This document shows, in pieces, positions 11,932 through 46,423 of a stretch of 64,000 nt of DNA (its first letter is position 1; each line of letters begins with the position of its first letter). Made by a program: the position numbers and the translations under genes. Source of the stretch: Posidonia oceanica (taxonomy: Eukaryota > Streptophyta > Magnoliopsida > Alismatales > Posidoniaceae); the NCBI GenBank assembly GCA_037176725.1, contig JAZBRS010000077.1, forward strand, positions 7,750,001-7,814,000. Direction: 5' to 3'. Under the pieces are notes generated by a model. That model made no database searches. It saw nothing but the letters and a program-made list of their open reading frames with translations, and was not told the DNA's origin.

Positions 11932-11995
11932 ACTTCTGAAATAGGAAATTCTGCTGACTTGGCATTTGTGTCCTTTTTTGTTCCTCCCCTGCTTC

Positions 11996-21320: not shown

Positions 21321-22740
21321 CTGGCTTCCTCAATCGAGTTCCCCATCAATATCCGGGAGCAAACAATAATGGTTCAGCAGCACGGGATTCCTGCCATTGA
21401 CTCAACTGAGTCATGGGCCGTGGAGCTTAGACAGAAAGCTGGGGAATCAAGGGTAGGCACATTTGAAGTTTGCTACAACATAGAGGATGACAGGAACCCA
21501 TGGTTCTTTGACATCCAGAACTACATTCAAGATGGGATCTTCCCCGACTACACAACTTCACAAGACAAAGAGGCAGTTCGGAGGATGGCTACAAGATACT
21601 TCATGAGAGCCGGGGTCCTTTTCAAAAGGTCTTTCAACGAAATAGAGCTGTGCTGTGTCACTTATGAGGAGGTTGAAGTTATCATTGGAGAAATGCATGA
21701 AGGCATATGTGGAGGACACATCAGCTCTCAATTCATGGCAAAAATGATACTACGCAGAGGGTACTACTGGCCCACAATGGAGGCAGATTGCGCAAACAAG
21801 GTGAGAAGGTGCAGGCAGTGCCAGATCCATGCAGACAGAATACATGCACCAGCATCAGAGTTGAATCTGACTCAAACGGTGTGGCCCTTCTCTATGTGGC
21901 CATTTGATGTCGTGGGCCCATTCGACACTGAAAAGCAGAATAGGTTCATCCTCACGGCCATTGAGTACTTCACTAAATGGGCTGAGGCAGAAGCGTTCAC
22001 TGAAATCAAAGCTTCAAATCTTTGCAAGTTCATGCGGAAGAATATCCTCTCAAGGTTCGGGATCCCAAAGAAATTGGTAGCAGACAATGGCGCAATCTTC
22101 GTATCCCAAGACTTCAAAAAGCTCTGTAAGAAGTTTAAGATTGAGTTGCATCATTCATCGCCATATTACCCCCAGGGTAATGGACAAGCTAAAGCTACTA
22201 ATAAAACGTTAATCCAAATCCTTAAGAAAATGGTAGGAGGAACCAAGGAACATGACTGGATAGATAAGCTAATTGATACCTTGTGGGCCTATCGAACCTC
22301 CATAAGAACGCCTACAGGCCAAATCCCGTTTGCGCTTACTTATGGTATGGAGATGGTAGTCCCATTTGAGGTCATGGTCCCCTCATCCAAAATACAACTC
22401 GACGATGAGGTAACTACCGAGGATAAGAGGCAATTATTAAGTCTATAGTTGGATTTGCTAGATGAGAAGCGGTTGCAAGCAGCTGAGCATGCATGCCTCT
22501 ACCAAGAACGACTTGGAAGAGCATATAAGAAGAATGTAATTGAACATAAATTCAATGTTGGTGAATGGGTGCTTAAAGAAATCCTTCCTCGCAAGCATGG
22601 GAAATTGAGACCAAATTAGGAAGGACCATACTTGGTGGTTGAGGCATATCCGAGCAATGCCTATTGTTTGGCCAAAGAGGATGGCACTAGGCTTGAATAT
22701 CCCTAGAATGCACTGCACCTCAAAAGGTATTACCCTTGAT
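21264..22740 (+). pseudogene. Element D integrase
   Basis: One long open frame (21264-22448) then the same frame to YYP* near 22740 with two TAGs. The zinc-binding HHCC is seen in MHEGICGGHISSQF...CRQCQIHAD (about 21690-21830). The catalytic triad gives Asp in WPFDVVGPFD, Asp in LVADNGAIF, and Lys instead of Glu in GNGQAKATNK (22185). The following WVLKE...GKLRPN segment is the usual C-terminal GPF/Y-like module, here GPYLV. I see no chromodomain. Integrase would insert cDNA in the chromosome; the Glu to Lys change predicts an inactive enzyme. Confidence 0.92.
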
Positions 22741-24099: not shown

Positions 24100-24227
24100 G
24101 TTAAACGAGCAAATAGCAGCGTCCAACGTTGGACGCACTATCTGAAGCGTATAATGACCAACAGAGGGATATTGGATGCCTGATATCACGCGTCTTACGT
24201 TATAAGTGCCAGTCTGAGCGTCTTACG
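24100..24227. repeat. Two twin-hairpin blocks downstream of antisense gene 1
   Basis: 24100-24155 contains GCGTCCAACGTTGGACGC as its centre with GTTAAACGA and GCGTATAAT as outer arms; 24171-24227 has ATTGGATGC, GCGTCTTACGTTATAAGTGC and GCGTCTTAC. They lie between pol and the 3' end of antisense gene 1. Confidence 0.75.
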
Positions 24228-24410: not shown

Positions 24411-25756
24411 CTATCTAATCATCTTCTTCCTTTTCCTGAGCAGCACGCCCGTCGCTTCCACCCACTCCTCTGGTTTGGGCAGTAGCTTTGAATACCACTT
24501 CCAGTGCGCATCCTCCCATGGTAGGCAGCAAGTCGAAGGAGTAGCTGATGGCCCCTCTGAATCATCATGGCGGTCCAGAGACAACCAAAGAACCCGAATG
24601 TAGTACACCATTACTGCATCAGATGGAAAACTGCGCTCTCGAACCCAAATACGAGGAATAAAGCTCAACCGAGGTGGCACCCCTTTCTTCTGCCCCACCA
24701 TCTCAAAGCATCGATGGGAGTTATACACCAAAAAGTGGGTGGGCCCTATCAACTCCAACTCAACTGAAGAACCGCGCGCCTGGTGCTTATGATAAAGAGA
24801 CGTCGAAGGCGTGGAGATGTCAATAAGGGCAGAGGACAAAGAGCAAACCCTTTCCTCAATCAAATCTGTCTTCACAGGCCCAAGCCTCAGGGAATGGACC
24901 TGCAGCCACCTGGAAAGAAGGAAAGGAGAGCCTACAAAATCCCCTCCGATGGAAACACTGGTCAGGCCAAGATATGTAGCGGCAAGAATGGCAACTGAAG
25001 GAGAATGCCAGAAGTGCTCAGTAAGGCCTATCAAGAACTCAGTATGATAGACATCGAAGGAGAAATCCTTGGTGACAAATAAAGTGAGGCCTCTAATCAG
25101 TAAATGTAGACACACCAACAGCTGATCCTAAGAGGCAGAGTCCTCAATCTGCCGGAAGCTGAAGTACAGATGCGCCAAGTTGAGCCTGCGACCTCTAATC
25201 ACTGGGAAGGTAGGCGGAAGGGTGAAGATACGGTCTATGAATGTTTGCATATCTGCTATTCCGTATGGCAATGGGAAGTCAATATCTGGCCGGGCCGCTC
25301 CAATTTGAGTCACACCAAGCAGGCCATGAACATGCTCTACTAGGATTGTCGCCTCACAACCCCCAAAGAAAAAAGTGTGAGTCTCAGGACTCTAGAAGGC
25401 ACATGAGGCATGAAGCAAGGGCCAGTCCAAGTTTGTGCCCAATAAATCCAAAAGTCCATCAAAGCATGTACGGGCCAAAACAGATTTCCTTTCTCGAGCC
25501 CAAAGCACCAAGTCCTTCACCCAAGTGGAGTAGTAGGGGAAGTCATTATCAAAGCAAGGTGTTTTGGTAAAATTGAGGATTTCCTACAAAGAAATTCGAA
25601 AGCATGAGAAACAAAGGAGTGTGAAGGGACCAATGAAGAAGATCATACCTTCCCTGTCTTGATAAGGGACATCATATGCCCTTCAATCTCTTCCAAAGGT
25701 TTTGTAACTCCCTTCTTGTTGTGCATGAAGACATTGGGAACTGAACTAGAAGCCAT
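24411..25756 (-). pseudogene. Antisense gene 1: PMD/DUF7745-like, two exons
   Basis: On the minus strand ATG at 25756 opens a 36-codon exon 1 (25756-25649) ending KTGK, then a 65-bp intron (GTATGATC...TTTGTAG) in phase 0, then exon 2 from 25583 to the stop at 24411. Exon 2 has one in-frame stop near 25128. It contains ETHTFFFGGCEATILVEHV and LLGV, matching the pattern THTFF...E..I..EEVSALLG of antisense gene 3, and later IGPTHFLVYNSHRCFEM shared with genes 3 and 4. This pattern is that of PMD-related transposon proteins. A TATA box lies 97 bp upstream of ATG. A captured host-like gene, on the strand opposite to gag-pol. Biochemical role unknown. Confidence 0.65.
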
Positions 25757-25852
25757 GAAAGCAAAAGAAAGAAAAGGAAGAAGCACAAATCAAGAAGAAA
25801 TCAGTAGGGAGGAAAGGGACAAGTATGCATGAAAATCAAAGGGGTGGCCAGG

Positions 25853-26103
25853 CTTTTATAAGCACAGAAGGGCCGTCGGAAATCCATCATGCAGGCATTG
25901 AGAGAATTTTGCAGTATTCCGGAAGATTAGCCAAGAATAGGAAAGGAAAGAAAAGTTTCTAGGCTCACTTCGTTGTACGCGAGACGGAGCGCGTCCAACG
26001 TTAGCCACGCTAGTTGAAGCGTATAACGTTTAGATCAGCTACCCGGCATTGGACACAGAGATTGAAGCGGATAACGTTGGCCGCACCAGATGAGGCGTAT
26101 AAC
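25853..26103 (-). promoter_or_regulatory. Promoter of antisense gene 1: TATA box and hairpin modules
   Basis: Minus-strand TATAAAAG at 25860-25853. Upstream of it are two twin blocks: 25972-26028 (GTTGTACGC-N10-GCGTCCAAC, GTTAGCCACGC...GCGTATAAC) and 26047-26103 (ATTGGACAC-N10-GCGGATAAC, GTTGGCCGC-N10-GCGTATAAC). The same arrangement is seen in LTR D. Confidence 0.7.
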
Positions 26104-26582
26104 GTTTTATCAGTGACTCAAGTTACTGAACTTGGTTGGATCACCCCCTAATCCGTGATTGAGTTGCTTGAACCTGTTTTACCCATCCCAGAGGTTTAAC
26201 TAAGATGAAATACACGTGTGACCGTTGGTTTCATATTTTTTGGACATCCGGGCCAGTCGAAATCTCTAGTTGCTCATTTCATCAAGTAAATGGCTCATTA
26301 AGGCATCGACGACTTCAAAAGACATTTTTAAGCTTCCAGGTGAAATCTTTCCTTATAACTATGTCATTTACATACTATTTCACTTGAGTATGCTGGTTTC
26401 AAGTTAATTTGGATTAAGGGCCATTATTTTACCATATTGGTTGCTTAAGCTCATTTTAACTTTGAGAAAGGTAATTTAAAAGAAGTGTTTGACAAGTTTG
26501 CTGAGTGTGCAGAAATCTATATCATTTCAAAATATACAATTGTTCTACAAGGTCACCGGGGCATACCCCTAAAGTACAAAAG

Positions 26583-29500
26583 CTAAGGAGTACTCTCTCC
26601 CTCACCCTCGGGAGCTGAAGTAGGAGTCGGAGAAGGGGCAGTAGGAGGACGAGGCGACTGCCGAACAGAAACGCCTGACGGAGCCCTGGAGACGGACCGA
26701 GAGTGGTGGCTGCCCGACCGGCGGCTCGGTACAGAAGGAACGGGCACCCCGAGCTTGGCACCAGCTGAAAAGGCAAACCTCCGGTAGTGCCCAAGCTCAA
26801 GCTCAAGCTGGGAGATAACCCCCGCCATGCCTTGAGAGGAGAAGCGACCAAAATGTCAGATACAAGCAAGGACATGGAAGACGTAAAGAAGCACTGAATT
26901 AAATCATACCACCTGAGATTGGGCAATCTCGGCATCCCTATCGGCAACCTGCTGCTCTAGCTCTCGGATCTGAGTACTGCTGGTGGCAACTGTCCCCTCC
27001 AACTCCTCCAACCTCCCGATAGAGCTGGCAACTATGAAGTCACCAGCCCACTCCCTCAACTCACTCTCTAAATAAGCAACCTACAAGCATTGGTGTCAGG
27101 ACCAAGGGAGTTTCAAAAGCAGAAATAAAATAAAGGCATGTTTACCTTCTCCTGGAGATGGAAGATCTCCTCTGAGCGGTCCAGAGGAGGGGCACTACTA
27201 GTCGAAGGCTGAAAAGAAGGACTCAAGTCAGTTACAATTCATAGTCAGACTATAAAGGCTACATGTGAAGATACCTAAGAGGTAGAGGCACGCAGGCGAT
27301 CAATCTCCCCGGTCAGAACAGAGAGCTGCTGAGTCAAGTGGAGCTCCTGCTGAGCCCGCTCATCCGCCGCCTTGAGCTGCAGAAGAAAGAAAGCAAGTCA
27401 GCCAAATTGAATTAACAGTCTACAAAATGAAATTCAGAAGCTCACCACTATCTCCAGCTGGGCTTGGGAAGACTGAACCACCTCCAGTAGAGCCGCACGG
27501 GACACCACCGCCTCCCCGGGATCTGTGTCCCCTAAAGGAAGGTTCCCGCGCCCAAGGAAGTGGGACCGGTGGAAGATCATCAAAGAAGAAAACTCTTGGT
27601 CTATCCACTCAGCCCACACCGCCTCGTCCTCCTTTGTGGCATCCGTCGGAGCAGAAGAACCACGACGGGCCCAGTCCAAGAGCTGTGGACCGTAGACATC
27701 CACCCAATGACGAGCACGGCTGCCCCCACCGCGTGTCTCTCGCCAAACTTGGTGAGGAGGAGGTAGAGGCTGAGCCTGTCGGTGCCCCAGCTGTCGTAGT
27801 GCCTTGCCAATCTGCTGGAAGTGACTGTGGTTCCAGCAGTGGATCCATACGTCCCGGTCGAAAATGGCCCGATCACGGGCAATCTTAGGGACATCAGCAT
27901 GCTCTCCCTCAGCATATGGACACCAAACCACCTGAAAGGAGCAATACATGTCAGCAAGTAGCATAAATAAATAAACAGAAGCTGAAATTAAAAGAAGCAA
28001 GTTACCTGAGCCAGGACAAGGAGCTCGAAAAGCAGACGACTGACATAGCAGTTGTCATCTGCAAGCTCAAGGGCCCGCTTAACAGCGCCCAAAATAGTCC
28101 CCGAGGAAAGGGGACACCGGTAGGAGGAACTGGAGGAGGGGCAGGTCGTAGAAAGGTGAAGTGGTCCCACGCCCACATCTGCATGCCAAACAAGGAAGCT
28201 GTTAGCAAGAATATAATATCCAATGCAAGCTTAAATATGCAGATTTTACCTGAAGGAATGACAGGTTCCCACCCAACTGGCGAGAACTGCCGGCAGTGAA
28301 GCGGAAGAGGGTGGAGTACAGGTGCACCAAGCTGGCCGCACCCCAAGCGTACTCTCCCACGCGCTCTAAGTCCGCCAGGAGAGGAAGGAACCACGCCGAG
28401 AGCTTCGAGAAGGAGTGCGAAAAGAGCACCTCCCCAAACAACATTAGGAGGAAGGCCCGCAGCTACTGGTCGACCTCGACACCTAGTCTGGCTACTGTCT
28501 CTGCCAGCTCACTAACTCGGCGAACCGCAGAAGTAATCACCACAAGCTGCTCCCCGCTCATGGCTAACTGACGTCCAACAAGCTCCTGCGCCAAGGCTGA
28601 GTAACCCGAGCACACCCGCCCCATCACTGGTCTGCCCGTGACTCGGAGACCAGTCAGCCGCACCATGTCCTCAAGGGAGAGGACAAACTCGCCCACCCTC
28701 ATGACGATCGAGCTTGTGCGGAAGTTCCACCACTCTGGGACCGCCTCCAAGAACATCGGACGGAAGGGAAAATCCGGGATGGACAGGAAATACCCAAATC
28801 CCATCTGATCCAGACGCTCCTGCTGGAAGGCAGCCAACAAGGCGTAGGACTGGCAGACCTGACCCCAGTAGCAATAGGTCACGGTCGGTGCTCAACTCTG
28901 CAAACAAGCAAGAGAATCATCAGTCAGGATGAAATAATTGAATAAAATGAGGGAACAATGAAAAGATGTCTACCTGCCCCCTCGAAGCTAGTGTGGCAGT
29001 GGCGTACTCTGATCGAGACACGTCCCTACGCGGTCCCGATGCCTACACCTCATCCCGAGGGATCTACTCCCGCCAGTAGTCCGGGGGATCCCTCGCATCG
29101 CCCTCTACCTCCCGTCGAACAAAGTCAACCATGTTCCGCCACCAACCGTCGTCCTCACCAAATTGCATGAGGAAGGGGTCGACCGGCCTCACCTCTGGCA
29201 CCTCCGCGGGCCCCGCCTCGTCTAGGAAAACCTCAGGCCTCGTCTCTGAGACCGTCTCCTCCGAATCCTTGTAACTGAAAGAACTACTAGAATCGGAGTC
29301 CACCGCCACTGTCGTCTCTATGGCCTCCCCGGAACCAGAGTCTGCCCCCACGGCATCCTCACTAGCTGTCGCCTCTGCCTCCACGGCATCGCCACCAGCT
29401 GCCACCTGGGCCTCTGTGGTACCACCACCAGCCGCCACCATTTTCGTCGCCTCAGGCCCTACGGCGTCACCACCGGCCTCCACCACCTCCACCGTAGTCC

Positions 29501-29759
29501 GGCCGGCCTCCACAGCCTCCCCAGGCACCATCCCAGCTTCAACCACCCCGGCCACCGTCTCCATAGCCGCAACACCGGCCCCGGCAGGTGCAGCCCTGCC
29601 TGCCACTGCCCAGCTGGTGGCCTCCGCAGCCCTCGCCGTCGCCTCCCCTGCAGTTGGGCCAACTGCCGGTGCCTCCGACGAAGGCTCGCCAAAGGGCGAA
29701 GGCCTCGTCCGAGCTCGTTTCGCCGTCTGGGTGTAGAAGTGAGAAATCCGCTTCTCCAT
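26583..29759 (-). pseudogene. Antisense gene 2: plant mobile domain (PMD) protein, about eight exons
   Basis: Exons read on the minus strand: 29759-28974, 28897-28250, 28178-28006, 27931-27446, 27376-27275, 27208-27146, 27080-26913 and 26830-26583, each with GT/AG borders. Exon 1 is Ala/Glu/Val-rich (low complexity). Exons 2-4 form a clear PMD: PEWWNFRTSSIVMRVGEF, LEDMVRLTGLRVTGRPV, EYAWGAASLVHLYSTLFR, QLGGNLSFLQ|MWAWDHFTF, WCPYAEGEHADVP and KALRQLGHRQ. Later exons code coiled-coil (LEELEGTVATSSTQIRELEQQ). In-frame stops in exon 1 and at the start of exon 2, a frameshift in exon 3 and TAG at the exon 5 end show decay. MAIL1/MAIN-type PMD proteins act in the nucleus on gene and transposon silencing; function here is inferred only. 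Confidence 0.75.
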
Positions 29760-29865
29760 CAAAGTATTCTCACCGGAATAAGAAGGAAGATCGTCGGAAA
29801 GCTCGCTGGCACCGGAGAAGAAGAAGAGAGGAGAAGCAGGTGACCACCCGTGGCGTAGGACGAGG

Positions 29866-30029
29866 GTTTTATACCTTTCAACGTTATCTGCATAAATTGC
29901 CGCGTCCAACACCTCGGGAAGAAAGAATGTTATACGCACGCTATGGCTCGTCCAACGTTTTGAGAGTTAAAACGTTAGCCGCTGGTTTCCCAGCGTACAA
30001 CATTGGTCGCTCCATTTTCAGCGTACAAC
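29866..30029 (-). promoter_or_regulatory. Promoter of antisense gene 2: TATA box and hairpin modules
   Basis: Minus-strand TATAAAAC at 29873-29866, 107 bp before ATG. Hairpin units follow at once upstream: 29883-29910 (GTTATCTGC...GCGTCCAAC), a GTTATACGC...CGTCCAAC unit, and a twin at 29974-30029 (GTTAGCCGC-N10-GCGTACAAC, ATTGGTCGC-N10-GCGTACAAC). The stems are not always complementary (GTTAGCCGC versus GCGTACAAC), but the outer AAC/GTT and GCG positions are kept. Confidence 0.7.
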
Positions 30030-30148
30030 GCTTTAAGTTCAGGGAAGTGTTCTGAATTCTGATGCTTTCATTCAACTCATACAAATTCATTCAAAAGAGA
30101 CCAAAGAGACGAAATAAATTTTATTGATGATAAATGACACATTTCTAA

Positions 30149-31507
30149 CTACATTTTCTGTCTTTTTGAAGGAAATTCAATGAACAACTTAGGCCACACA
30201 CCCTCGTACCAAGCGTCATAAGTTGCAAGAGAGATGGCTTCACGGTCCGCATTCGAGTTCTCCCATGCAGAAAGGACTCCGTTTTGCCCCTTCCCGTCCC
30301 AAGTACCAGCCTGATAGAAGACCTAGATGATGTCCCCATGGGTGTCTCTCAAGCGCGGGAGAATCATGTCGAAGAAGCGAGGCAAGGGAGGTATAGCCTG
30401 AGGAGTACCCAGCATCGAGAAGCATCGCTGAGGGTTGTACCTCACAAACTCGGTCGCCCCAATCAACGTTAGGAAATACTCTAGGTCAGACACTGTCCTG
30501 AAAGACGAGGGAGGACTGAAGGAGTCCATCTGCGACTTGACCTCACAAGCGCATAGACAACGAATGTACTCCTCCAATGGAAGGCTAGCATCAAGAGCAG
30601 GCAGAAGAAAATGCTCCTCCAACCAGCGCAAAACTAGGAAAGGCGAGCCGAAGAATGGTCCCCCGAGGCAGGTACTGGATAAGCCCCATATGGTAAAAGC
30701 CAAAACAGACTGACTCAAGCATTTCTCCGGATTGCGAACGCAGATGCAAATGAACTCAGCATGGTAGGCGCTAATGGTCAGGGCTTCATTTGGGAAGAGT
30801 ACCAGTCCCCCGATCAGAATAAAGACACATTCCAAGCAGGAAGCCTCAGAGTAGATGCTGTCGCGCTGTTTCCAGAAGAATTTCCACAAGGAGGAGAGTT
30901 TGATACAGCCATCTAGCACCAGGTCCTCCGGCACAACAACAGAGCCAAAGATGCGCTTTAAGAGAGAAAAAGAGCCTACCACCCCGATTGGCAAAAGGTA
31001 GGCATCCCTGCAGTAATTGGATAGGTTGGCCTGTCGAGTACCTAAAAGGGCGCTCACCTCCTCCAAAAGGATGTTCAACTCCCTTGAAGAAGAAAAGAAT
31101 GTGTGGATCAAAGGATTCCACAGCCCGCAAAGGTCGAAAAGCACCTTCCAGTCAATAGGCTGCCGCAACTGGTGAAGAGCTTGACAAAGACCAACCTCTT
31201 CCAAGCACTCCCGATACTTCTTCAAAGCCCAAGAGCGGAATTGTTGAACCCAGTCCAACTAGTAGGCTTTCGAGTCACGGTTGTTGTTGATAGAGGATAG
31301 GGGCTATGAAGTAAGAAAAATCAGCAGAGATAGAGAGATACGAGAATGGGAGTATGGGGCAATGATGAAAACGAGAAGTACCTTCTCATGCACCAAGAGA
31401 TTCGCCAAGTGATTAGGTATAGCCTCCAGCCGAAGTTGCACCATGTCGGAAGGAGAGGAGAAGACGGCCACTTGGAAGGCATGGCACGGGATATCGCTCA
31501 AATCCAT
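30149..31507 (-). pseudogene. Antisense gene 3: PMD/DUF7745-like, two exons
   Basis: ATG at 31507 opens a 42-codon exon 1 (MDLSDIPCHAFQ... to LLVHEK) ending at 31382. A 123-bp intron (GTACTTCTC...CCTACTAG) in phase 0 leads to exon 2 from 31258. Exon 2 is open for 311 codons, has one stop near 30323, and continues to TAG at 30149. It shows LWNPLIHTFFSSSRELNIL, LEEVSALLGTRQ, FGSPFLVLRWLEEHF, and FVRYNPQRCFSMLG, the latter aligned with FLVYNSHRCFEMVG of gene 1. It is the best preserved of the cluster, broken by a single in-frame stop. PMD-related by pattern, role unknown. Confidence 0.7.
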
Positions 31508-31598
31508 GAGGAGAAGCACAATTCCGAGCAAGTAAATAAATCAATAAAGAAAGGAAGATTGATGCTTTAACTACAAGATCCATGCCAAGAGGGGGGCT

Positions 31599-31789
31599 AA
31601 TATAGGCCGTGAAGCCTTCATCAGAATGGAAACCTAAAGAAAATCAGAGATTTACTGCCAAAACGGTGGTGCCCGAACAGGAAAGACAGCAGCTTGTCTC
31701 GCGACGTTATACACAGCCACCTTGCCGTCCAACGTTAGCCACGATGTTTGACGCATCCAACGTTGAACGCTAACAATCCAGCGTCCAAC
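31599..31789 (-). promoter_or_regulatory. Promoter of antisense gene 3: TATA-like box and triple hairpin
   Basis: Weak TATATT at 31604-31599 on the minus strand, 92 bp before ATG. A triple block at 31706-31789 has arms GTTATACAC, CGTCCAAC, GTTAGCCAC, GCATCCAAC, GTTGAACGC and GCGTCCAAC with 10-11 base loops. Confidence 0.6.
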
Positions 31790-32254
31790 AAATCAAAGCA
31801 GAATTGAGAGTGAATCAGCAAGCCCCGGAGCACAACCGGGCCAACAAAGCAAGCAAAGCCAAAGAAGCGAATGTACATCTCATGGAGATGCTCCCAATAG
31901 GAGCGAGCCCAGCTAGACAATAGCACCTGACACAGAAAATCCAAAGAACAACATTAATAACTCCCTAAAGAAGAAAAATAAACAAATAACTCAATAAGAA
32001 GCTAAACACATAAAATTGACCTCACTTGGCCTAGCTCTGCAAGCTCAGCTGCTGTCTGAGCTCTCTTGGGAGGAGGATAGCGAGGGACCTCGTCCAAACC
32101 AAGGCTGTCACCATCACTGCCACTCATCTCTGTCCTAGCGGGAGACGGTGCACGTGGACGCCTTGCCCGAAGCTTGCGAGGACGAGAGGAGCTCGCCCCC
32201 GCAGTAGAAGGACCTACCTCGTCCCTCCCAATCTCAACCTCCTCATCAGAAACC
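31735..32254 (-). pseudogene. Antisense gene fragment 5 (C-terminal exons)
   Basis: Two exon-like pieces on the minus strand: 32254-32026, after TATTCCAG, coding a polar, Arg/Pro-rich segment (RPRKLRARRPRAPSPA, then PKRAQTAAELAELGQ), and 31926-31735, after TTCTGTGTCAG, coding VLLSSWARSYWEHLHEMY. A GTGAGG donor ends the first. The 5' part is missing; AT-rich DNA follows. Its 3' end runs into the hairpin block of gene 3. Probably the tail of another antisense gene of the same cluster; no family recognised. Confidence 0.4.
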
Positions 32255-32279
32255 CTGGAATAGTGGCACAAGTAGAGTT

Positions 32280-33720
32280 TGGTCAGTCCAGGCCAAGTTA
32301 AGAATCAATCAATCAAAACATTAATTAGTCGTTAATCATTCCAATTAATCATTAATCAAAACATTAATTAATCATTTCAAATATTAATTAAACATTAATC
32401 AAAGCATTAATCATTTCGAAACATCAATCACTTCAAGATATTAATCAAACACTTAATCATTAATCACTTCAAACGTTTGAAACTCTGTTAATTAAACATA
32501 TAAACCCTTTTAGTTATCTAATAATTACTCACAACATTAAAAATTGCCTCAAATGTCTGAATATCACTTGAATTATCTAATTCTTTTAAATGAACAAAGC
32601 ACATGAACCATTTAAGAAACACAATCACCTCAGGTTTTTATTAATTAATTCAACATACGACAGTTAAATACAATATCGAATGAAATTAATCAAACTTTAC
32701 AAACACTAAGGTAAATATTTAAAACACATTCAGAAAAATTTTATGGCTCCACAAATCCACAAAGACGGAAAATACCACGCTAAAAATGCTTAATAAACAC
32801 AACCACATTAAAAGAAATTAAGAAAATTCCTTTTCGCCAATTCACCTTAAAAATTCGACTATTTCATGCTTTTTCAAATTCATTAACTTGCATTAATTAA
32901 TAAATAAAAAGTAAAATCCACCAACCTATCCTAAAGATCAATTTTCCTTTTTAAATAAGCAAACTTATCCTCTAATCTTAATTCACAAATTCTTCTCTAA
33001 GTAATTTATCCTAATAATCATTAATAATTTAAGTTTCCTTTCAAGGTAAACTTTCCTAATTTTAATTCAAAAATTAATCCATTAAATATTTTCTTTCATT
33101 AAACAATTCAATCCTCTTTTTAAGATCCAATAGAAAATTCTATTCTCCAAAATTCCACAAAATCATTGAACACATAATCATCAACTCAAAAATGAAACTT
33201 TATTTTCCAAAATTTTAGTCACTCATTATTTAATCCACAAAAACCCACAATAATATTTCTAAAAATAAACTATCCTCATCCATATAAATTCTTAAATCAA
33301 TCCAAGTACTATTCACAAAAATAAGAAACAGAATTTATCCCCAAATTAAAATCCTATCAAACAAAGACAAAAATCCATATAACATCCTAAATTACAAAAC
33401 ATTGCCCTATTTATAATATCATTCACAGAATCCACTGTTAAAATAAGAAAAATTCACTAATTTCAGCATCATTCACAAAAAAATTTGGCAAAGTTCCACC
33501 ATAAAAATTCCACTGAAAATTTAAGCATGCATTCAATTTTTACACAAAAATATTCTCCTTCATTCACGATGAGAAAATTCACAAAGAATCCATCTTGCAA
33601 GATTTTCCATTCAACATTCATTCACAATAAAATTTAACAAATCAACAGCCATAAAAATTTTTTCACAAACATTTTTCCTTTACAAAGACAAAATTTTCAA
33701 CATTAATTCAACATCCCAGT
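32280..33720. other. AT-rich spacer with TTAATCA-type repeats
   Basis: Very AT-rich DNA with many TTAATCA/ATTAATTA repeats (densest at 32310-32470). No ORF, no LTR end or known element seen. It separates the D-type antisense cluster from element F and is the likely place of an element boundary. Confidence 0.6.
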
Positions 33721-34469
33721 CACTGACTATCACGGCCGTCTACCCCTCTCCGGCCATCCACTGCCGCCCAACATCGCCGGCCACACCACACCTTGATACC
33801 CAACAGCAAATAAACATGGAGGAGAGGAGGAGAATACCTCCTTCACCGGCGAGCACCGCCGTCCGAGCCACCACCACTCGCACCACCTTCACTGCTGCTA
33901 CTCGCCATCAGGGGATGTGGAGGAAGACAGGCCACACTGCCGCCGCACCACTGGAGTCGTGCCGCACTGCCGGAGACCACCGTGCCGCCAAATCATCGAA
34001 GGGGAGAGCGGGGAAGCACTGGCAGGAGGAAAGAAGAGAGGCATGAGGCCAAAAGGGGGGGCAATGGTTTGGTTTTGTTACTTGACCTGCGCCTTGGTCG
34101 CCAAATCTAACGGCGACCTCTTTAAACGCCGCATTCTACGGTGACTTAACCTTTGGCTTCCTTAGGACGCCAACTTTCCCGCCTCAGTTTGAACCACTCC
34201 AGCAAAGGCCATGTCAGCACCTATCGCCATGAATAGCAACGACAAACTAGAAAATTTTTAAAATTAAGCATAACATTCCCACTTTCATTTAAATAGCAAT
34301 CCACGTCACCCTGTGTCGCCGAAAAAAGTGGCGACACACTAGAAACCCCCATTTAATTCAGGAAACTAATATGAAAATGAAATAAAACGCTATTTATTCA
34401 CGTCCGACACATAAAACAGACTATCGCCCTGAACATTGAAATTTAAAAAAAAAACAAAATAAAGATAAT
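33721..34469. other. GC-rich patch and GGCGAC-type hairpins (element F side)
   Basis: A GC-rich patch (33730-34060) in CCGCC/GCCGG style, with a small open frame I do not trust. Two perfect hairpins follow: GGTCGCC-AAATCTAAC-GGCGACC (34096-34118) and GTGTCGCC-GAAAAAAGT-GGCGACAC (34313-34337). They are of the E/F motif type, which suggests that element F has begun by here. Confidence 0.55.
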
Positions 34470-35838
34470 CTAACTATACATTGCTATGCTCATATAGCTG
34501 AGGCCGAGCATCTTCAGGAACTCTAGTCTATCATTAGCATACTTCTGGGGAGTAGGACGAAGCCGTGCATACCACTTCAAGTACCTGGACTCCTGTAATT
34601 CCCGAGAAGTCTCAGAAAGCCGAGTCGCACTCAGAGACACCCTCCAGCCAATATGAACCCAACGGGCTATATACTCCATGACCATCCTCTCATCATGATC
34701 ACCGTCCTCCTTGTGAACATGGATCAGAGGAGTCAGCACTGCATCAGCCTGAATAGTAAGCTCCTGATTCAGCAGGCAGGGGCAACGGTGGATGGGATAC
34801 AGCACAAAAGACGTAGCCCCCACCAAGACAAGCTCAAGATGGCTATGGGTCAGGCTCATCACCCGGGCCTTATGAGCTCCAGGCAGCTTTGGCACAAAGT
34901 CAAAGTCCTGCAATGACAAGCGGCCAAGGTGAAAAATACAGTCATAAAAGCTCAAGCTAGCAAAATCTGCATAGCTGCAGCAGTGGAACATGAACCACCT
35001 GTGCTATAGAAGTGGAGAGCCAAAGAACTTCCCTGAACAAGAAGCACTAGCAAGTCCCTCCATGGTGTATGCCAACACAGCAGGAGCCAAGTATAAGTCT
35101 GGTCAAACAGCTACTAGCATCAGGACATCCACGTGGTGCAGATCCAGTGTAAAATTTTCATCAGCAAACAATGCAAGCCCACCAACAGCTATGAACAGAC
35201 AAGTCCTCAGTTCAGTCTCAGCAAACTGCCGGGTACTAAGGATCTCCCACAAGCCTCGAAGGAAGAGCCTCCCCGAGTGCATTAAAGCTTTACTGGCTTC
35301 CTGATCTTTTGCTAAGTACCAACCTATCTTCTTGGAGCCTACAGTCTCAACAGAGATGGCAAAGCGATTTTCTACTACTTCAATAGATTCCGCTGTTAAC
35401 CCAAGCAAAGAAGATACCTCCTCACATGAAATCAAAGTCTCCCTACAGGGAAGGTGGAAGGTGTTGGAGGAACTATTCCAGAAAGCCACCAAGGCATGCA
35501 GCAATCGCCAAGGCAAAGGGGTACGGATCAAATCAAGGAGCTTGTCAAAGCCACTGGATCCGAAAAGATGCCTATTATCCTCTGCCCGGTTGATCAAACT
35601 AGACACCCAAGGTAGAGTATACCGGAACGAATTATGGAAATTCGAACATCCGGTAAGGTTTACTACAGCCTGTAAAAAGCCAACAGTTAGAAACAAAGCC
35701 ACAAGCAAAGCATACAAGGACAAAGAAGAGAAGGAGAGAGCATACCTGATCATCACGAATGGCTTGCATCAAGTGGTTGGGGATATCAACCACCCTCTCC
35801 ACGGTGAAGGTTCAAGAAGAGAAAGAAGGAAGCTTCAT
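34470..35838 (-). pseudogene. Antisense gene 4: PMD/DUF7745-like, two exons (element F)
   Basis: ATG at 35838 opens a 31-codon exon 1 (35838-35746; TGA at codon 9) ending IPNHLMQAIRDDQ, which matches IPNHLANLLVHEK of gene 3. A 76-bp intron (GTATGCTC...TTTTTACAG) in phase 0 leads to exon 2 from 35669. It contains SSSNTFHLPCRETLISCEEVSSLLG, parallel to genes 1 and 3, and SFVLYPIHRC in place of FVRYNPQRC. Stops near 35103 and 34992 break it. The conserved intron place shows that genes 1, 3 and 4 descend from one captured two-exon gene. It belongs to F because its promoter hairpin is of the GTCGCC...GGCGAC type. Confidence 0.65.
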
Positions 35839-35896
35839 GGTCAAAGGGAGAGGATTAATTCTACAGAATGTCCCCTAGAAGACGAGTACGGCCTCC

Positions 35897-35988
35897 TTTT
35901 ATCCCCTCCTATCTAGAAAAATGGAGGATAAAGTGGATTCTGAGACAAAATAGCCAGAAGATTGCGCGTCGCCCCCGCACCCGGCGAC
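35897..35988 (-). promoter_or_regulatory. Promoter of antisense gene 4: TATA-like box and GTCGCC hairpin
   Basis: Minus-strand GATAAAAG at about 35902-35896, some 60 bp before ATG. The hairpin GTCGCC-N9-GGCGAC lies at 35968-35988, about 65 bp further upstream. Same arrangement as genes 1-3 but with the E/F family motif. Confidence 0.55.
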
Positions 35989-35999
35989 TGGAACATTAA

Positions 36000-36887
36000 G
36001 ACAGACCATCCTTTGCACACTATCACGAACGATGATTCTGCCAAACTGCGAACTAAAAGCAAAGCTGAGGAACGAGCCCCTGCCTTAAAACTCACACCGT
36101 GTCCACTGACACAACTGCTGCGACTAAAAGACGAAACATCGATTTGGCAGGTGAAGGGTTCACTCCCTCACCCGATTCTCTATGCATAGAGCCTCTTTAC
36201 TTGCCAAGTCGAGATGTGGGACGACGGTCCTTTCCTGAGAGTACCGGCCACACTCGAGGACGGAAAACACTTGACCACAACAAATGGCATTCATTCATTT
36301 TACATATGTCCATATGGTTTGGGACCAATCGTACCCTGCCGGCCTAACCTAGCATATGGACCATTCATTGCATCGTATGTTGACCTTGCATTATCATTGT
36401 TTATTTGAATCATGCATCCATAGATTTTCTCATATCATTGGAAGTGGAGCACGAACGAAGCAAAATGACCTTCAAGAGTGTTAGAAACCCTTAGGACATG
36501 TGATTCTCCTAGAGCCAACCTAGTTCCTACCTATCCTTTTATCAATTCTAATCCGAGTAAAGTCTCAAACAAGATGCCAAACTCCTTTCGATTGTGTCGG
36601 GATAAAACCCCACGATTTCCTCCTTAGTTCCTGCCCCGTTGGAGCACCCTTACATGGTTGACCTGGTCATGACATCGGCTGCAACGCATAGTTCCAAAAC
36701 CGACTTGACCCCTCCATGCCTGAGTCTCCAATATGATGGCAGTTTAAACCTTTTTTTATCATTCCTTTGGCTACCTTGACGGCAAATTGTTTGAGACAGA
36801 TCTCCCATTTTCAGGAAATGCTCAATAGGACATCGTTCTTACCTTGGAACCGATCTTGTTCCAAGATCATCTCCAAGGAGGGACATC
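36000..36887 (+). other. Element F 3' untranslated region and polypurine tract
   Basis: Homologous to the end of E (36130-36887 with about 45630-46423): both have AAGGGTTCACTCCCTCACCC and the phrase CATATGTCCATATGGTTTG. It ends with the polypurine tract CCAAGGAGGGACATC (36873-36887) against the LTR start. A perfect hairpin, CTTGGAAC-N7-GTTCCAAG, lies at about 36843-36865. Confidence 0.75.
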
Positions 36888-38481
36888 TGTAGATATCCCA
36901 TTTTTGCATTTCTGAGAGTTCATAGAGGATAGGAACCTTGAGGCACCCCATATCACATAACTAAGGCTTAATAACACATTTTTTCCAGATTTTCCGTGAT
37001 TTGTTTAAAGCATCGCTTGATTTTACTCGACTCAAGGTTGTTAGTTGTGGCATAGCTAACGCACTCAGACTCGTGGCAAGTCCAAGTACCTTGAGTATCC
37101 TTTTTTCCACTCAAATCAGTGGCAGATTTGAGTTAAAGAAGATGTTTATATGATTTCATGAGATTTCTAAAGTTTTCTGGGCTTTTATCATGTTTCTCTA
37201 GATTAACATAAAAGACAGGGTTAAAAATGCAAAAGACCTAGCTAGTTGCCTCCCAGAGCGGCGACACAGCCAGACGCCTTTCAGAGGGGCAACTGGACTG
37301 TGCAAGCGCCTATGTGCGAGACGACTAGCAACCAGCCTCTCTCTATAGCTTAAACAATCAATATCCTGGGCATTAATTTAACATGTAGGGGCTTTATAAA
37401 TTATTATAACGCTTTTTCCGTAAATTATCGATATTTCCGTGATTTTCAAATCTCTAATATATGATATAACACAAAAAATCATATAATCAATTAAGGAATA
37501 ATCTAGAAAATCCTAGGTGGCTTCCAAATTAAGACCTAGATTTTTTAACACGTTTTTCAATCTAAGATTTATCTCTTAAAAATCAGTAGCATATTTAGGA
37601 TTTACTTCCTTAGAATTAGAAGCATATCTAGATTTGGCCTAGAATTGTGCAACAGCTAGGCGCCTGTGTGACAGGCGACTAGCTGATGTGGACTCCGCTT
37701 GACCTGCTCTTACGGAATTTCCACGGCATTTCCACGATCTTTTCGGGAGATATTTGTGCGAGTCGCCTGCCTATGGGGCGACTAGCCATAAATATCAGTG
37801 GCTTCTTCTAGAAGCTTCTAAAACCTTCCTAGATATGAGCCACCCATGTCCCACAAGCTTACAAATAGACCCCGTGAGTCGGTGCTCAAGAGGAGGAAAT
37901 TCAGGAAGAGGAGGAAATTGATTAAAAAGGAGGCTTTTTTTAGGGTTTAGGAGGAAATTCATTAACAAGGAGGCCAATTAAAAGGGTTTAAGGAGCCAAA
38001 TCTGTAAGCAAAGAGTCATCTTCTAAGAGAGAAACCCTAGCCTCCACCTTCTATTCAGAAACCTAGAGATCCCAAGGATACCCGGAGCTCCAACTGTGCC
38101 TCCACTTCCTCATCCCACTACATACAGCACGAGGGTGAAGGGAGTATCGTCTTCCATTCTCTTTATTTTCATTATTGCATTCTTTAGATTAGATTCATAG
38201 CATATGCACGTGGGGAACAACCCCCGGTTAGTATTAGTTGCATTTATTTACGTTATTTCTTGCTTATTTGATCGATTTACTACACACGGACTTATCTAGA
38301 TCTTCTGTCACTTGTTTTTTTGAAGGAAAAGAACCCACTCATGTAATACGAGGACGCCGCTAAACGACACCCTGTCGTCGATCCAGTGAGCCGACTACCC
38401 ACATCATCATCATCATCTCCCTAGGCACCTTGTCCGCCCATTGACGAGTGGCGATCACATCAAGTCGTCGACGTACGTGGA
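36888..38481 (+). mobile_element. 3' LTR of element F
   Basis: It starts TGTAGATATCCCATTTTTGC after the polypurine tract and ends near ...GACGTACGTGGA, 3 bases before the next LTR. It is about 1.6 kb. Family hairpins: 37241-37332 (AGTTGCC, GGCGACA, GGCAACT), 37653-37685 (CAGCTAGGCGCCTGT-GTG-ACAGGCGACTAGCTG type, nearly perfect long stem) and 37761-37783 (AGTCGCC-N9-GGCGACT). The TATA place has TACAAATA near 37861, so the promoter may be weakened. Confidence 0.85.
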
Positions 38482-38484
38482 AGC

Positions 38485-39882
38485 TGTAGATATCCCATTT
38501 TCGCATTTCCAGAGTTCATAGAGGATAAGAACTTCTGAGGCACCCAGATCACACAACTAAGGCTTAAATAACACATCTTCCAGATGTTCCTTGATCTGCT
38601 TAAAAACAATGCTTGGTCCTACCTGACTTAAGGTTGTTGGTTGTGGCAGAGTTGACGCACTCAGACTCGTGGCAAGTCCGAGTACCTTGAGCACACTTTA
38701 TCCCACTCAAATCCGTGACAAATTTGAGTCAAAGAAGATGTTTTTATGATTTCATGAGATATCTGAAGTTTCCCGGCCTTTTATCTTGTTTCCTCTGGGC
38801 AAAACCTAAAAGCTAGGGCTAGAAATGATCTGAGCTTGCTAGTTGCCAGCTGGGAAGGTGACTAAGTTAGTTGCCAGCTGGGGAGGCAACTAAGTTAGTT
38901 GCCAGTTGAGGAGGCGACTAACTCAGTTGCCAGTTGGGGAGGCGACTAAGTTAGGCGCCACACTAGGCAGCTACTAACTGTTGTGGGCTCCATTAACCGA
39001 ATCGAACGGTTATTTTTGGTGGTTGTGTCCCATGATCCCCTCAACAGCTAGGCGCCAACCTAAACGATGGCTAACCTCTAGACACCAACCTAACTGGCGA
39101 CTAACGATCGTGGCCTCTATCAACCGAATTTCTACGGTTTTCCACACGTTTGTTTGGCCGATTGCTGGTCTTAGTTGCCTACCCATGTGGCGACTGGCCA
39201 TAACTGCCACTTTTTCTAGAAATTTCTATGTGTTAACCACCCACACCCCTTGGAGTCTATAAATAGACCCCGTGGGTCAATGTGTTTGAACCCCCAGCCA
39301 GTTGTGAGGAAAACCTATCTTGGAGAAATTCCCTTTGGGTTTTTAGGGTTTTGAGCTTCCACCTTCAAATAGCTAGAGTTTCCAAGCCAAAAACCCTAGT
39401 CTCCACCTTCAACAGAGAAACCCAAGATCCTAGAGATCACTACATCCCAACTACGATTCCAGAGATCTCGATCCTAGCCGGAGCTCCAACCGTGCCTCCA
39501 CTTCTACTCCACTGCATACAACACGAGGGTGAAGAGAGTATCTTCTTCCAATCTTTTTCATTTCATATTGCATTCCTTAAAATAGGACCCATAGCATATG
39601 CAAGCGGGGAACAACCCCCGGTTAGTATTAGATCTATTTGTTTCTAGTATTCTCTATTCATCTTTGTTATCATTTACTACACACCAACTTATCTATATCT
39701 CTTGTTTTTGTTTATTTGTTTTGAAGGAAAGGAATCGCTTACGTAACACGAGGGAGCCGCTAGACGACATCCAGCCGTCGATCTAGTGGTCTGAGGACCT
39801 ACATCTTCATAATCTCCCCGAAGGTGTCTTGTCTACCCAAAGGCGAGTGGCGATCACAACAAAAGTTGACGACGTACATGGA
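38485..39882 (+). mobile_element. 5' LTR of element E
   Basis: It starts TGTAGATATCCCATTTTCGC and ends ...GACGTACATGGA by comparison with the 3' LTR. If the PBS-like site at 39931 is the real one, the end could be at 39926 (TCCACA). It holds a run of AGTTGCCAGYTGGGGAGGCGACT repeats (38855-38960), another pair AGTTGCC-N9-GGCGACT (39173-39195), and TATAAATA at 39258-39265, 62 bp further on. TGGCGATCACA, a PBS-like motif, is at 39848. Confidence 0.85.
39258..39265 (+). promoter_or_regulatory. TATA box of LTR E
   Basis: TATAAATA within GGAGTCTATAAATAGACCCC; the same box is at 47167-47174 in the 3' LTR. The family hairpin AGTTGCC...GGCGACT lies 62 bp upstream. Confidence 0.75.
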
Positions 39883-39930
39883 TGCGCAGACATCTTCTTA
39901 AACACCCCCCCAAATCCACATCCACAGGAG

Positions 39931-39948
39931 TGGCAATCACGGTGGGAC
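39931..39948 (+). other. PBS-like site of element E
   Basis: TGGCAATCACGGTGGGAC, nearly identical to the site in D at 12705. It lies 48 bp beyond the LTR end as defined by the 3' LTRs of E and F, which is unusual; see findings. Confidence 0.55.
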
Positions 39949-39974
39949 TCGGCTTTAGCCAACCCCCGTGCTAT

Positions 39975-41085
39975 GTAAGTAATTCCTTTCCTTCCTTTCC
40001 ATTATTTTTAAAGATCTAGGTGTAGTTTTGGTTCGGGTGATCGTGCGATTAGGTTTTCACAACTCCCAAGCCTTTATCAGTTTTTTTTTATATCTGTTTT
40101 CGACGTCAGTAAAACCCAAAGCTCCAACAGCTGGGTCTGTTTTACTGAGGTCAGAAGACTCTGCACTGAGCCACTGTCCAAGGAGCATCTGTCCTAGTCG
40201 CACCTCCAGGAGGCGACTGACAGAGGCACCATTGCAACAGGCGACTCATCCTAGTCCGTTTTTTTACTGCAGATCATTAGTTTTTCTGTAATTTGTGTTG
40301 TATTTTTGGATCTACAGTTACATAAAAAATTAAAAACAACTATTCCTGTCCACTATGTTTTAGCTTTTTAATGGTCTCTAGATTTGTTGTGTCCACCCTT
40401 AAGGTGGAAACTAATTGTTTTATATTAAAGTTAAAGTTCCTTGAGGAAGTCTTCCTCTAGCTAGAACAATTAACCAGAGCGAACCCGGGCCAGTGCAAGT
40501 CGCTCTCCCATACTCAGTGTTAATTGCAATAGTTAGATCAAGATCTCAAGGTGTCCTAAGTGTTATTATTGACTCCTCTTTCTCCCTGAGTCAATATTAA
40601 AACTTGGTAGATACTTTACACTTTAATATTTCGTATTTATTTGTTGTTTTGTGGTTTGACTAAGTGCCGAGCCTAAGGACAGAATCCTAGGTGGAGGGTC
40701 CCTCTTTAGAGAGACAAGCCCCCTATCTAGTCCCTCTTGGTGGACCCTAACGAAGGTCAAGGAGTGGTACCTGAAAGCAAAAATCCCATTTACTTGTGAC
40801 ACACACGTAGGTTTAATTAATCGACTAATTAAACACTTAAACAAGTAAAAGCGGCGCTCTATTTGAAACATCATTTCACTTTTTTTCCTGACTGTTGCGT
40901 GGTCAGTCCAAGACAGACCTGGTTTGCTGACTGAACAGAGGCATAGTCGCTTGTTCGGAAGGTGCCTCGCTCAGCCGCTTGTGCAAACGATGACTTGTTT
41001 GGCTGCCTGTTCTACAGGCGACAGTAGGGAAACCTTTTAGTTTCAAAGTGCCTTGCTTGCAAGAATTTAGTTTTACTGTTCACAG
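39975..41085 (+). other. Candidate leader intron of element E
   Basis: Donor CCCCCGTGCTAT|GTAAGT and acceptor TGTTCACAG|GATTG (or GATTGCAG at 41093). It sits at the same place as the candidate intron in D and again holds family hairpins: AGTCGCACCTCC-A-GGAGGCGACT near 40197-40220 and AGTCGC/GGCGACAG elements at 40940-41030. Confidence 0.5.
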
Positions 41086-41214
41086 GATTGCAGGCATAAA
41101 CTATTTCAGTTTCTGTTTATTTCTCTTTATTTAATCAAGTCTTTATTAATTAGTATATTGAGTCTGTAATTTCTTTCTTAAAATCTCCTATAATAGTCTG
41201 AAATAGTCTGATGG

Positions 41215-41308
41215 AAGAAAAAAAGAAAGAAGAAAAAAAAAGTAGAAAGAAAGAAGAGAAAAGAAAGAAAAGCAAAAGGAAAAAAAAAAGAAAAGAAAAG
41301 AAAAAAAA
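41215..41308 (+). promoter_or_regulatory. A-rich tract before gag (element E)
   Basis: About 95 bp of AAAGAAAG/AAAAAAAAG purine sequence ending 12 bp before the gag ATG at 41321. Matches the place of the tract in D. Confidence 0.65.
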
Positions 41309-41320
41309 CACAATCTTATA

Positions 41321-43890
41321 ATGGAGGCTTATCAAGAGCGTATCAATATGACATCCGCATCTACCTTCACCTCCATGGCGCAACAGACCCTAGGCCCAGA
41401 TGGGTTCTTCTTATTCAGAGCTTCAACTCCACAAGCAGAGGAGCCAGAAAACCCTAGTTTCTTGCAAGCAATGGGCCGGTCATGTGAAGAAGAAAGAGAA
41501 ATAAGCTACTCCCGACCATGGAGTGTCCCGTTTGAGCATACAATTCCCAGGGTAACCTCCCTAGTAGTGCCACCTACATCGACCGCTTCCTATCTGTCTG
41601 AGGAAGCGACTAATGAGATCTATCGACCCCTGGCACGGCACCACCATCCCTCACTTAGAAGCCCGCAAAATCCACACGCTCACCAACCTTCTTTCCTAAA
41701 CCCTCACCAAAATCCATTAACCACGCCCACTCACACCTACACATACACCACGCCACTAAACTCCACTATAAATTTCCCTACTCAAAATTCATTCACACAA
41801 TACCACGCAATGCCAACCTATCCTTCCATGCATCAAACCATGCCATCACACACAACCTACCCTTTCATACATCCAACCCTGCCATATACAACTCACTACT
41901 CACCACAACCTCCCGCTAACACACAATCATACTACACTCCACATCACACCCAACCCTTCTCTCCACCATACGACCCTCTATCACCACAGTTCCACCAAAC
42001 ACATGGGCACCTAAACCAGGGGCAACAAGCCGTGCCAGGACAGGACATCAAGAGAATGATCTCTGAAGCAATCACTGAGGCGGGAGTTACAACTAAAGCA
42101 CCGATAGGGTTTGACACGTCAAAATTTCCTCATTTTGTTCTTCCACTTGGATTCAAAATGCCAAAAATGAGGAAATACAGTGGAATAGAGGATCCAAGGG
42201 GCCATCTAGCCACATTTGCCATGGACGCTCTACCCTATCAATATGACAATGGGCTTATAATCTACCTCTTCTTTAAAAGCTTGGAAGGAGAAGCACTGGG
42301 ATGGTTCAACACGCTCACAGCGTATGATCTTAGTGACTTCAAGATGGTCCAAGAGAAATTTCTGCGCCAATATGTCCATCGCATCCAGCATGAGCCTACA
42401 ATGAGAGACCTCCTCACTGAAAAGATGAAACCAAATGAGGAGTTCTCCACTTTTGCAAGTAGATGGAGAGACATGGCTGCAAGATCTAAATGCTATATTC
42501 CTGAAAACCAAGCTGTCGAGATCATCGCCCGAAACACTACAGGAGCACTTAGAACAGGGCTACTAATGAGTGACCTCTAGACATACCCTCAGCTACATGA
42601 GCGTGCTGCAAGAATACTCCGTCACAGAGAAGATCTACCATTCTTAGAGCTCGAGGGAAAGGGCAAGAAGAAGAGCACTGGCTATACGCTTGAAGGGATC
42701 ACGGGTGACATGGCCTAGGTCTCAATTCAACAAAGGCAGAAGGGCCAACACCAGTCTGAGCAATCACTCCTGGCCAAAGGGCAACTGACCCAGTATCAGC
42801 CAGAGCCATACCTAAGCCAACCAACGCAGTACTAGGGGCAATTAGTGCAGCCAATACAGCACGAACAACAACAACCACCTGATTATCCAGTACATGCCCA
42901 GCAAAGATACCAAGGGCAACGGCAGGGGCAAAGGAACTATCACAGCATCCCTCCTCCATGAAGCTACAAAGGCCCTCAGAGGCAAAACTATCCTCCGCTT
43001 CCTGAATCAATCCCCAATACATTTAGGATGCTGGTTGAGAGTGGAGATCTACAGCTCCTAGAGCCCAGTCCGAGCTACCCAAACGCTAATATGGCCAAGC
43101 ATTACCCTTATCATCAGAACAATGGGCACACCCTTGAAGAATGCTTCATCATCAAAGATAAAATACATAATCTTAATGACAAGGGTGATATCATGTGGCC
43201 TGAGCTCAAAGCAAACTAAAGGCGGCTCAAGAAGGGCAGCAGGTGATGCAGACACATCAAGAGCCCTTGGTCAACTACCAAGTAGATCATGCAGATGCAG
43301 AGATCATCTTATCAACTGCTCGGGCTGAGTTCACGTCCATCCAGTGCATACCAGGAAATCTAGAGTAGAGCCCATCCAACGAAGGGGACCTTGATTCCCA
43401 TGTACTCCAGGACTTAACAAAGGAAGGCTACTCACCCATCTATGATGAGTACACTGACCCAGACTGGTGCAATGAAAAGGCAGTGGACTCTCAGATGTTC
43501 CAAGACATAATTCAAGAAAGCCAGTCGCCCATCTACAATGAGTATGCGGATTCAGACTGGTGTAAAGCATAAGCTGCACTCAGTTCACTCTGCCAAGCTC
43601 CCCAAGTAGCACAAACAAAAGCTGATCCTCCTCCCAAGCCGCCCGTTCCTACAAACGGACACACTAGGGGCAGTCATGAATGCTATAGTTATGAGGGAGA
43701 GGTTAATATAGAGCCCAATGGAAACATCAACGGTTACATCCTAAGGAGCTCCAATGTAAAAGACAAAGCCACCAGGGGCACACTGCCTGAAACGGGTCGA
43801 GACGAGTCCAACTTTGACCCTCTGAAAGCAAGGACTGGGCGCAAACCAAAAGAAAGACAAGAACATGCGCCACATGCACCTGACTAATTA
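41321..43890 (+). pseudogene. Element E gag
   Basis: ATG at 41321 opens 419 codons. Residues about 95-245 are Pro/Thr/His/Tyr-rich (HQPSFLNPHQNPLTTPTHTY). The gag core follows with FKMPKMRKYSGIEDPRGHL, KSLEGEALGWFNTLTAYDL, VQEKFLRQYVHRI and FASRWRDMAARS. The frame goes on past stops at 42578, 42716, 42832 and 42959 through a Gln-rich stretch to a zinc-knuckle-like YPYHQNNGHTLEECFIIKDK (43105). After a shift there are two copies of SPIY(D/N)EY.D.DWC (43435 and 43528). It ends near 43890. Fewer lesions than in D. Gag alone could be packaged in particles of a related autonomous element. Confidence 0.85.
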
Positions 43891-46409: not shown

Positions 46410-46423
46410 CAAGGAAGGGCATC
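46410..46423 (+). other. Polypurine tract of element E
   Basis: CAAGGAAGGGCATC directly before the 3' LTR start TGTAGATATCCC. Confidence 0.75.

Follow-up and report, generated by a model that had tools for sequence, protein, structure and literature searches.

Genes for PMD proteins are known in gypsy elements, where no role is known for them, and the PMD proteins of Arabidopsis silence transposons by a route that is not yet understood. Here we analyzed a stretch of 64,000 nucleotides from Posidonia oceanica (assembly GCA_037176725.1, contig JAZBRS010000077.1, positions 7,750,001 to 7,814,000 of the forward strand), referred to below as the window, in which gypsy-type elements (D, E, F, and family A) carry phased arrays of palindromic half-sites. 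For D and E/F, these arrays lie both in the long terminal repeats (LTRs) and upstream of antisense PMD-like genes. As far as the literature searched shows, phased and family-specific palindrome arrays that the LTR has in common with the promoters of antisense PMD-like genes in the same element are new. No published link between PMD genes and LTR motifs was found in the literature searched at title and abstract level, and the matches listed for the half-site strings in literature text look unrelated, as judged by title.

Several described systems share part of this arrangement, as far as the accessible parts of the respective papers go. The RM boxes of Sireviruses (Bousios et al. 2010, PMC2829016) are palindromic and CpG-rich, lie in the LTR upstream of TATA in at least eight copies per element, recur upstream of an additional gene (ENV), and vary in sequence around a fixed core. 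The window likewise has clusters of palindromic boxes ahead of TATA within its LTRs. In contrast, Sireviruses are Ty1/copia elements with a CGG-CCG core (in all but one element) and ENV as the additional gene, and no 28- or 29-bp phase is stated in the accessible part of that paper. In the window, the elements are of gypsy type, the half-sites are GCGTNNAAC and GGCGACT, and arrays accompany antisense PMD-like genes as well as the leader. VANDAL elements encode the VANC protein family and carry short, family-specific tandem motifs in noncoding sequence, which differ between related families (PMC5735166, PMC10398659). Noncoding, family-specific motifs were likewise found here, with the reservation that family A carries the D half-site. 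However, VANDAL elements are not retrotransposons, and VANC binding was demonstrated by chromatin immunoprecipitation sequencing and electrophoretic mobility shift assay, whereas the present arrays are candidate binding sites. In that anti-silencing system, the protein encoded by the transposon binds its motif and removes methylation. The word palindrome is absent from the accessible text of PMC5735166; here the phase is fixed at 28 or 29 bp. The genes in the window do not belong to the VANC family but are PMD-like genes beside a gypsy-type pol, a distinction drawn by domain and homology only.

PMD genes in angiosperm Gypsy elements have been described as PMD-A (Ikeda et al. 2017, PMC5418596); the accessible part of that work describes no cis motif, and genes 1, 3, and 4 of the window stay under the Pfam cut-off. 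Retand and related gypsy elements resemble the present ones in their long region between pol and the 3′ LTR, their antisense open reading frames (ORFs), and tandem arrays nearby, and gene23 of Grande is an antisense ORF with its own promoter (PMC11963269, PMC7264820). Nearly all clusters of those elements contain TRP28, and palindromic arrays common to LTR and antisense promoter are not described in the accessible parts of either source. No match to TRP28 (PF04195) was detected in ten ORF pieces of genes 1–5, a set that did not extend to first exons or to the 3′ part of gene 2. Finally, the initial annotation stated that the Arabidopsis PMD proteins MAIL1 and MAIN act through a promoter motif. 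This link is weaker than was assumed: a 'DOWN' motif is enriched in promoters of down-regulated genes, but its direct recognition is left open in the accessible part of the source (Nicolau 2020, PMC7156037). The MORC1 example of the DOWN motif, CATGCAGTTT (PMC9899485), is unlike the D or E half-sites, as judged by eye from this one example.

The modules in the window are palindromic half-site arrays with a phase of 28 bp (D and E/F) or 29 bp (family A). The features concerned are the following, with TATA boxes given as putative calls from the sequence.

Element D and antisense genes 1–3:
11411–12690 (ends approximate), plus strand: LTR D, starting with TATAGATATCCC, with 18–31 bp matches to the ends of LTRs E and F
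11621–11931, no strand assigned: D-type phased array and modules in U3 of LTR D
11923–11931: LTR D module GCGTATAAC; TATAAA at 11996, with 64 bp in between
12996–13051, 13801–13837, and 14185–14241: three D-type leader arrays 3′ of LTR D
19596–22448, plus strand: pol of element D (RVT_1, RNase H, RVT_3, integrase)
24100–24226: D-type array in the gap between pol and gene 1
24411–25760 (ends approximate), minus strand: antisense gene 1, PMD-like from its homology with gene 3 (E 2e-25)
25972–26103: half-sites of the D-type array preceding gene 1, with minus-strand TATAAA from 25860
26522–29760 (ends approximate), minus strand: antisense gene 2, PMD (Pfam PF10536, E 8e-10)
29880–30029: D-type array upstream of gene 2; TATAAA from 29873
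30323–31520 (ends approximate), minus strand: antisense gene 3, PMD-like
31706–31789: D-type array upstream of gene 3, with sites at 31731–31789; weak TATATT from 31604

Elements E and F and antisense gene 4:
34096–34148: weak array between pol and antisense genes
34470–35840 (ends approximate), minus strand: antisense gene 4, PMD-like (Pfam PMD below cut-off)
35968–35989: E-type module upstream of gene 4 (GGCGAC/AGTCGCC); GATAAAAG from 35903
36887–38483, plus strand: LTR E, read as 3′ LTR, with an E-type array at 37244–37296
37761–37783: LTR E module (AGTCGCC at 37761, GGCGACT at 37777); weak ACAAATAG at 37861
38484–39887, plus strand: 5′ LTR of element F, with an E-type array at 38841–38961
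39173–39195: LTR F module (AGTTGCC at 39173, GGCGACT at 39189); TATAAA at 39258
40196–40248: E-type array in the leader of element F
46423–47791, plus strand: 3′ LTR of element F (94.6% identical to its 5′ counterpart), with an E-type array at 46778–46870

Family A:
3–6229: second copy, with D half-sites at 2983–5278, mostly at 29 bp
48344–54739, minus strand: 3′ region, with D-type half-sites of mostly 29-bp period at 49312–51466
54691–55518, minus strand: parts of gene 5, PMD/DUF7745-like (below both cut-offs), sense to pol

Chance expectation was derived from 60 dinucleotide shuffles of the window. The D half-sites (GCGTNNAAC/GTTNNACGC) occurred 57 times (shuffled mean 3.1, maximum 8), and the E half-sites (GGCGACT/AGTCGCC) 18 times (shuffled mean 4.7, maximum 9). 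Six full D palindromes and 12 same-strand D pairs at 27–30 bp were present, compared with none of either in the shuffles. The D unit is GCGTNNAAC-GTTNNACGC with a spacer of 10 or 11 bp, and the E/F unit is AGTYGCC-N9-GGCRACT. For the 15 same-strand D pairs at up to 60 bp, the distance was 28 bp in five and 29 bp in seven cases (the others being 16, 21, and 58 bp), and 10 of 11 GGCRACT/AGTYGCC pairs less than 56 bp apart were spaced by 28 bp. Palindromic modules had been placed upstream of TATA in the LTRs and in antisense genes 1–4 by the initial annotation, and sites were indeed present at these positions, far above the shuffled level. Their position held, but the proposed lone modules turned out to be phased arrays. 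Likewise, the supposedly unchanged place upstream of TATA was seen at LTRs and genes, but arrays also occur in the leaders of D and F and between pol and the antisense genes.

Pattern searches covered the whole 2.96 Gb genome, with a gap of 1–30 allowed and the reversed pattern as control; the copies are families of related insertions and hence not independent. The D pattern GCGTNNAACGTTNNACGCN{1,30}GCGTNNAAC gave 39,569 + 39,559 = 79,128 matches (reversed control: 0), and the E pattern AGTCGCCN{1,30}AGTCGCC gave 15,159 + 15,408 = 30,567 (reversed: 256 + 249 = 505). Of these, 100 of 79,128 and 100 of 30,567 were listed, all on one contig (C1). Among the 100 D matches listed (73 separate places), the gap was 10 bp in 50 and 11 bp in 50. 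The period among the 100 E matches listed was 28 in 62, 32 in 27, and another value in 11; in many listed arrays of period 32, a GGCGNC-like half-site still stood 16 bp past AGTCGCC. Mixed D/E patterns amounted to 713 + 677 = 1390 (reversed: 297 + 269 = 566), many of those listed being AGTCGCC-N9-GGCGTCTAAC. With so few mixed matches, the two types seldom mix, although D GCGTCTAAC and E GCGACTAA may be aligned with each other. The bZIP T-box (AACGTT) was also considered, but it cannot account for the E type, in which ACGT is absent.

The type of motif tracked the element family (D versus E/F), as had been proposed, in the window and in other copies: a motif scan of copies found the D type upstream of genes 1–3 and the E type upstream of gene 4. 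For gene 1, at least two D half-sites were present in 8 of 8 further copies and a phased array in 7 of 8; in one copy (L086) the two half-sites were out of phase. Including the window copy, a phased D array lay upstream of gene 2 in 24 of 30 copies and upstream of gene 3 in 27 of 30, with no exact half-site in two of the 30 gene-3 promoters (L013 and L026). In the window array of gene 2, the site nearest TATA retains the AACGTT core only, and exact half-sites start at 29902. A further copy of LTR D (L094) displayed D half-sites in 28-bp steps. Several other copies contain genes 1, 2, and 3 with order and distance unchanged; examples of gene clusters elsewhere are:
C59: 26036422 and 26040475
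C27: 16406431 and 16408318
C3: 39363616 and 39369571

The E module was phased in 41 of 42 gene-4 copies, and the D half-site was found in none of the 42 (window copy included). The exception was L047, whose upstream sequence fails to align with the other copies. In an E-type relative (L081), E arrays were detected in the LTR and upstream of gene 4, with spacers unlike those elsewhere. An E2-specific right half-site common to the LTR and the gene-4 promoter was dismissed as an artefact of an opposite-strand comparison; once the strands were matched, LTR E and L081 showed no clear difference. In the window copy of gene 4 (34470–35860), the first exon contains a premature stop, and the array is one 28-bp unit shorter than in most copies.

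Half-sites were conserved beyond their surroundings. Between three gene-4 subfamilies of 32, 5, and 3 rows (L039 and L047 were left out), identity was 0.82 in half-sites, 0.44 in spacers, and 0.63 in flanks (permutation p = 5 × 10−5). Within the D family the contrast was weaker (0.80 in half-sites versus 0.73 in spacers, p = 0.023). Differences between copies comprised entire units, of 28 bp (window copy versus L040) or 36 bp (L059 and L067). CpGs in gene-4 half-sites were kept in 0.75 of the copies versus 0.53 elsewhere (p = 0.017), a weak signal from 4 versus 17 columns with L047 left out; for gene-3 half-sites, CpG retention was not significant (p = 0.46).

The assignment of the genes to PMD is uneven. 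Among the ten ORF pieces, gene 2 reached 38.9 bits for PF10536, above the gathering score of 34.9, while gene 4 (25.1) and gene 5 (22.3 and 22.4) remained below, and the pieces of genes 1 and 3 had no Pfam match. Genes 1, 3, and 4 are homologous by BLASTP (E 2e-25 for 1 versus 3, 2e-17 for 3 versus 4); gene 5 is a more remote relative (E 0.003 against gene 4 and 0.056 against gene 3). A protein search with gene 3 returned four short relatives only. The ratio of nonsynonymous to synonymous substitutions (dN/dS) was 0.13 for gene 3 (30 copies, 17 of which have no stop within the exon that matched) and 0.17 for gene 4 (42 copies, 26 without stop), suggesting that the proteins matter to the elements.

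The reading of the arrays as candidate family-specific binding sites is well supported by these patterns. Conserved half-sites with free spacers at a fixed phase have the look of arrays for a multimeric DNA-binding protein, and their presence both at the LTR and at the element's own genes points to a shared regulator. Each family would thus carry cis-acting arrays of dyad half-sites, in a phase of 28 or 29 bp, for a sequence-specific multimeric factor bound at fixed spacing. The arrays are located at the element's transcription units, namely the LTR promoter, the leader ahead of gag, and those promoters that precede the antisense PMD-like genes. We consider it possible, at slightly less than an even chance, that the element itself encodes this factor, the simplest source being an antisense PMD-like gene. 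The antisense genes would then activate, or keep unsilenced, themselves and the LTR, F and other non-autonomous elements would be controlled in trans, and the separation of D and E may have arisen by joint divergence of factor and sites. If one antisense gene makes the regulator, a self-driving and self-protecting loop could result, with sites and proteins drifting apart between families, as is known of VANC from the accessible parts of the sources (PMC5735166, PMC10398659). The more specific proposal, that PMD proteins are sequence-specific activators or anti-silencers on 28/29-bp operators and diverge jointly with the operator between families, is rather unlikely; it would make them a retrotransposon counterpart of VANC and offer a clue to the origin of MAIN and MAIL1.

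Several observations weigh against an element-made PMD factor. No known DNA-binding domain was detected by Pfam in the ten ORF pieces, and the structure model of gene 3, from an eight-row alignment, was too poor to use (predicted local distance difference test score of 40). The dN/dS values are lowered because copies were chosen by protein similarity. Arrays in leaders and between genes are not simply promoter-proximal, and the in-between half-site form GCGRCTAACGTTAGYCGC with D geometry occurs in only 44 arrays genome-wide, which speaks against a continuum between D and E half-sites and makes the two types look discrete. The window copy of gene 5 and 4 of 4 further copies had no array upstream (5 of 5 in total; one of them, L085, has a single lone E half-site upstream), nor was any D or E half-site present within 3.6 kb at seven PMD loci of another group (L002–L008). 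Family A shares the D half-site although its PMD gene is distant, the clearest counter-example to a pairing of PMD clade and motif. Of the suggested co-evolving pairs of PMD proteins and motifs, the dependence of the motif on the family and the conservation of half-sites over spacers stand; family A and L002–L008 speak against a strict clade–motif pairing.

The same sharing of a half-site by D and A fits a different source of the factor. The arrays may be enhancers for host transcription factors, a role also suggested for the palindromes of Sireviruses, with one factor for D and A and a related one for E/F, and with the PMD genes merely being further units under the same enhancer. We regard this as nearly as likely as an element-made factor, though it too falls short of being probable. 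Element F, which has arrays but only gag inside, agrees with a host factor, as do the Sirevirus palindromes upstream of TATA and ENV, for which PMD is not mentioned in the accessible part of the paper (PMC2829016). A host factor less readily explains why the D and E/F motifs differ with few mixed arrays, although LTR ends share short matches and genes 3 and 4 are homologous; moreover, the roughly 79,000 D matches would tie up a great deal of it. Repression through the arrays, whether by a silencing factor of the host or by an autorepressor that the element encodes and that limits copy number, would be in line with the silencing function of Arabidopsis MAIN and MAIL1 (PMC5418596 and PMC7156037, in their accessible parts) and with the CpGs in the half-sites, which are possible methylation targets. 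We consider it improbable: sites for a host repressor would be expected to be lost, yet the half-sites are conserved, and the CpGs of gene-4 half-sites are kept more often than others (those of gene 3 not significantly so). That the arrays are ordinary tandem repeats of no role, spread by slippage and element amplification, is very hard to reconcile with spacers that diverge while half-sites stay, and with one half-site recurring amid unlike spacers in several parts of a single element and across two families; the differences between copies by whole 28- or 36-bp units are what such repeats would produce.

An exact, abundant, and family-specific candidate operator beside PMD genes allows a direct binding assay for this domain. 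The elements may also represent a retrotransposon case of cis–trans divergence between element families, and about 79,000 phased matches in one genome constitute a large store of potential regulatory DNA.

Concerning the elements themselves, RVT_1, RNase H, and RVT_3 precede the integrase in element D, which is the gypsy order. An extra RVT_3 (archaeal-type RNase H) after the reverse transcriptase and RNase H is diagnostic for the Tat-like gypsy lineage, and element D has this arrangement. Element F (38484–47791) contains a gag domain as its sole internal ORF longer than 120 aa and looks like a non-autonomous element with strong E-type arrays. The two copies of family A lie in opposite orientation and contain tandem repeats (at about 1–2.3 kb and 52–54 kb) beside the 29-bp arrays.

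PMD loci of the other group form a series on contig C62 (about 0.37–1.86 Mb), to which L002–L008 belong. The matches share one strand, the matched stretch is open in many of them, and in part they follow each other at about 25.4 kb (e.g. 1410268, 1435725, and 1461150), so that the series looks like a large tandem array. The best PMD match (L001, C75:7964234–7968319) is full-length and open, has one lone D half-site without phased arrays and a 24-bp tandem repeat near the match, on its 3′ side by strand, and may be a host gene.

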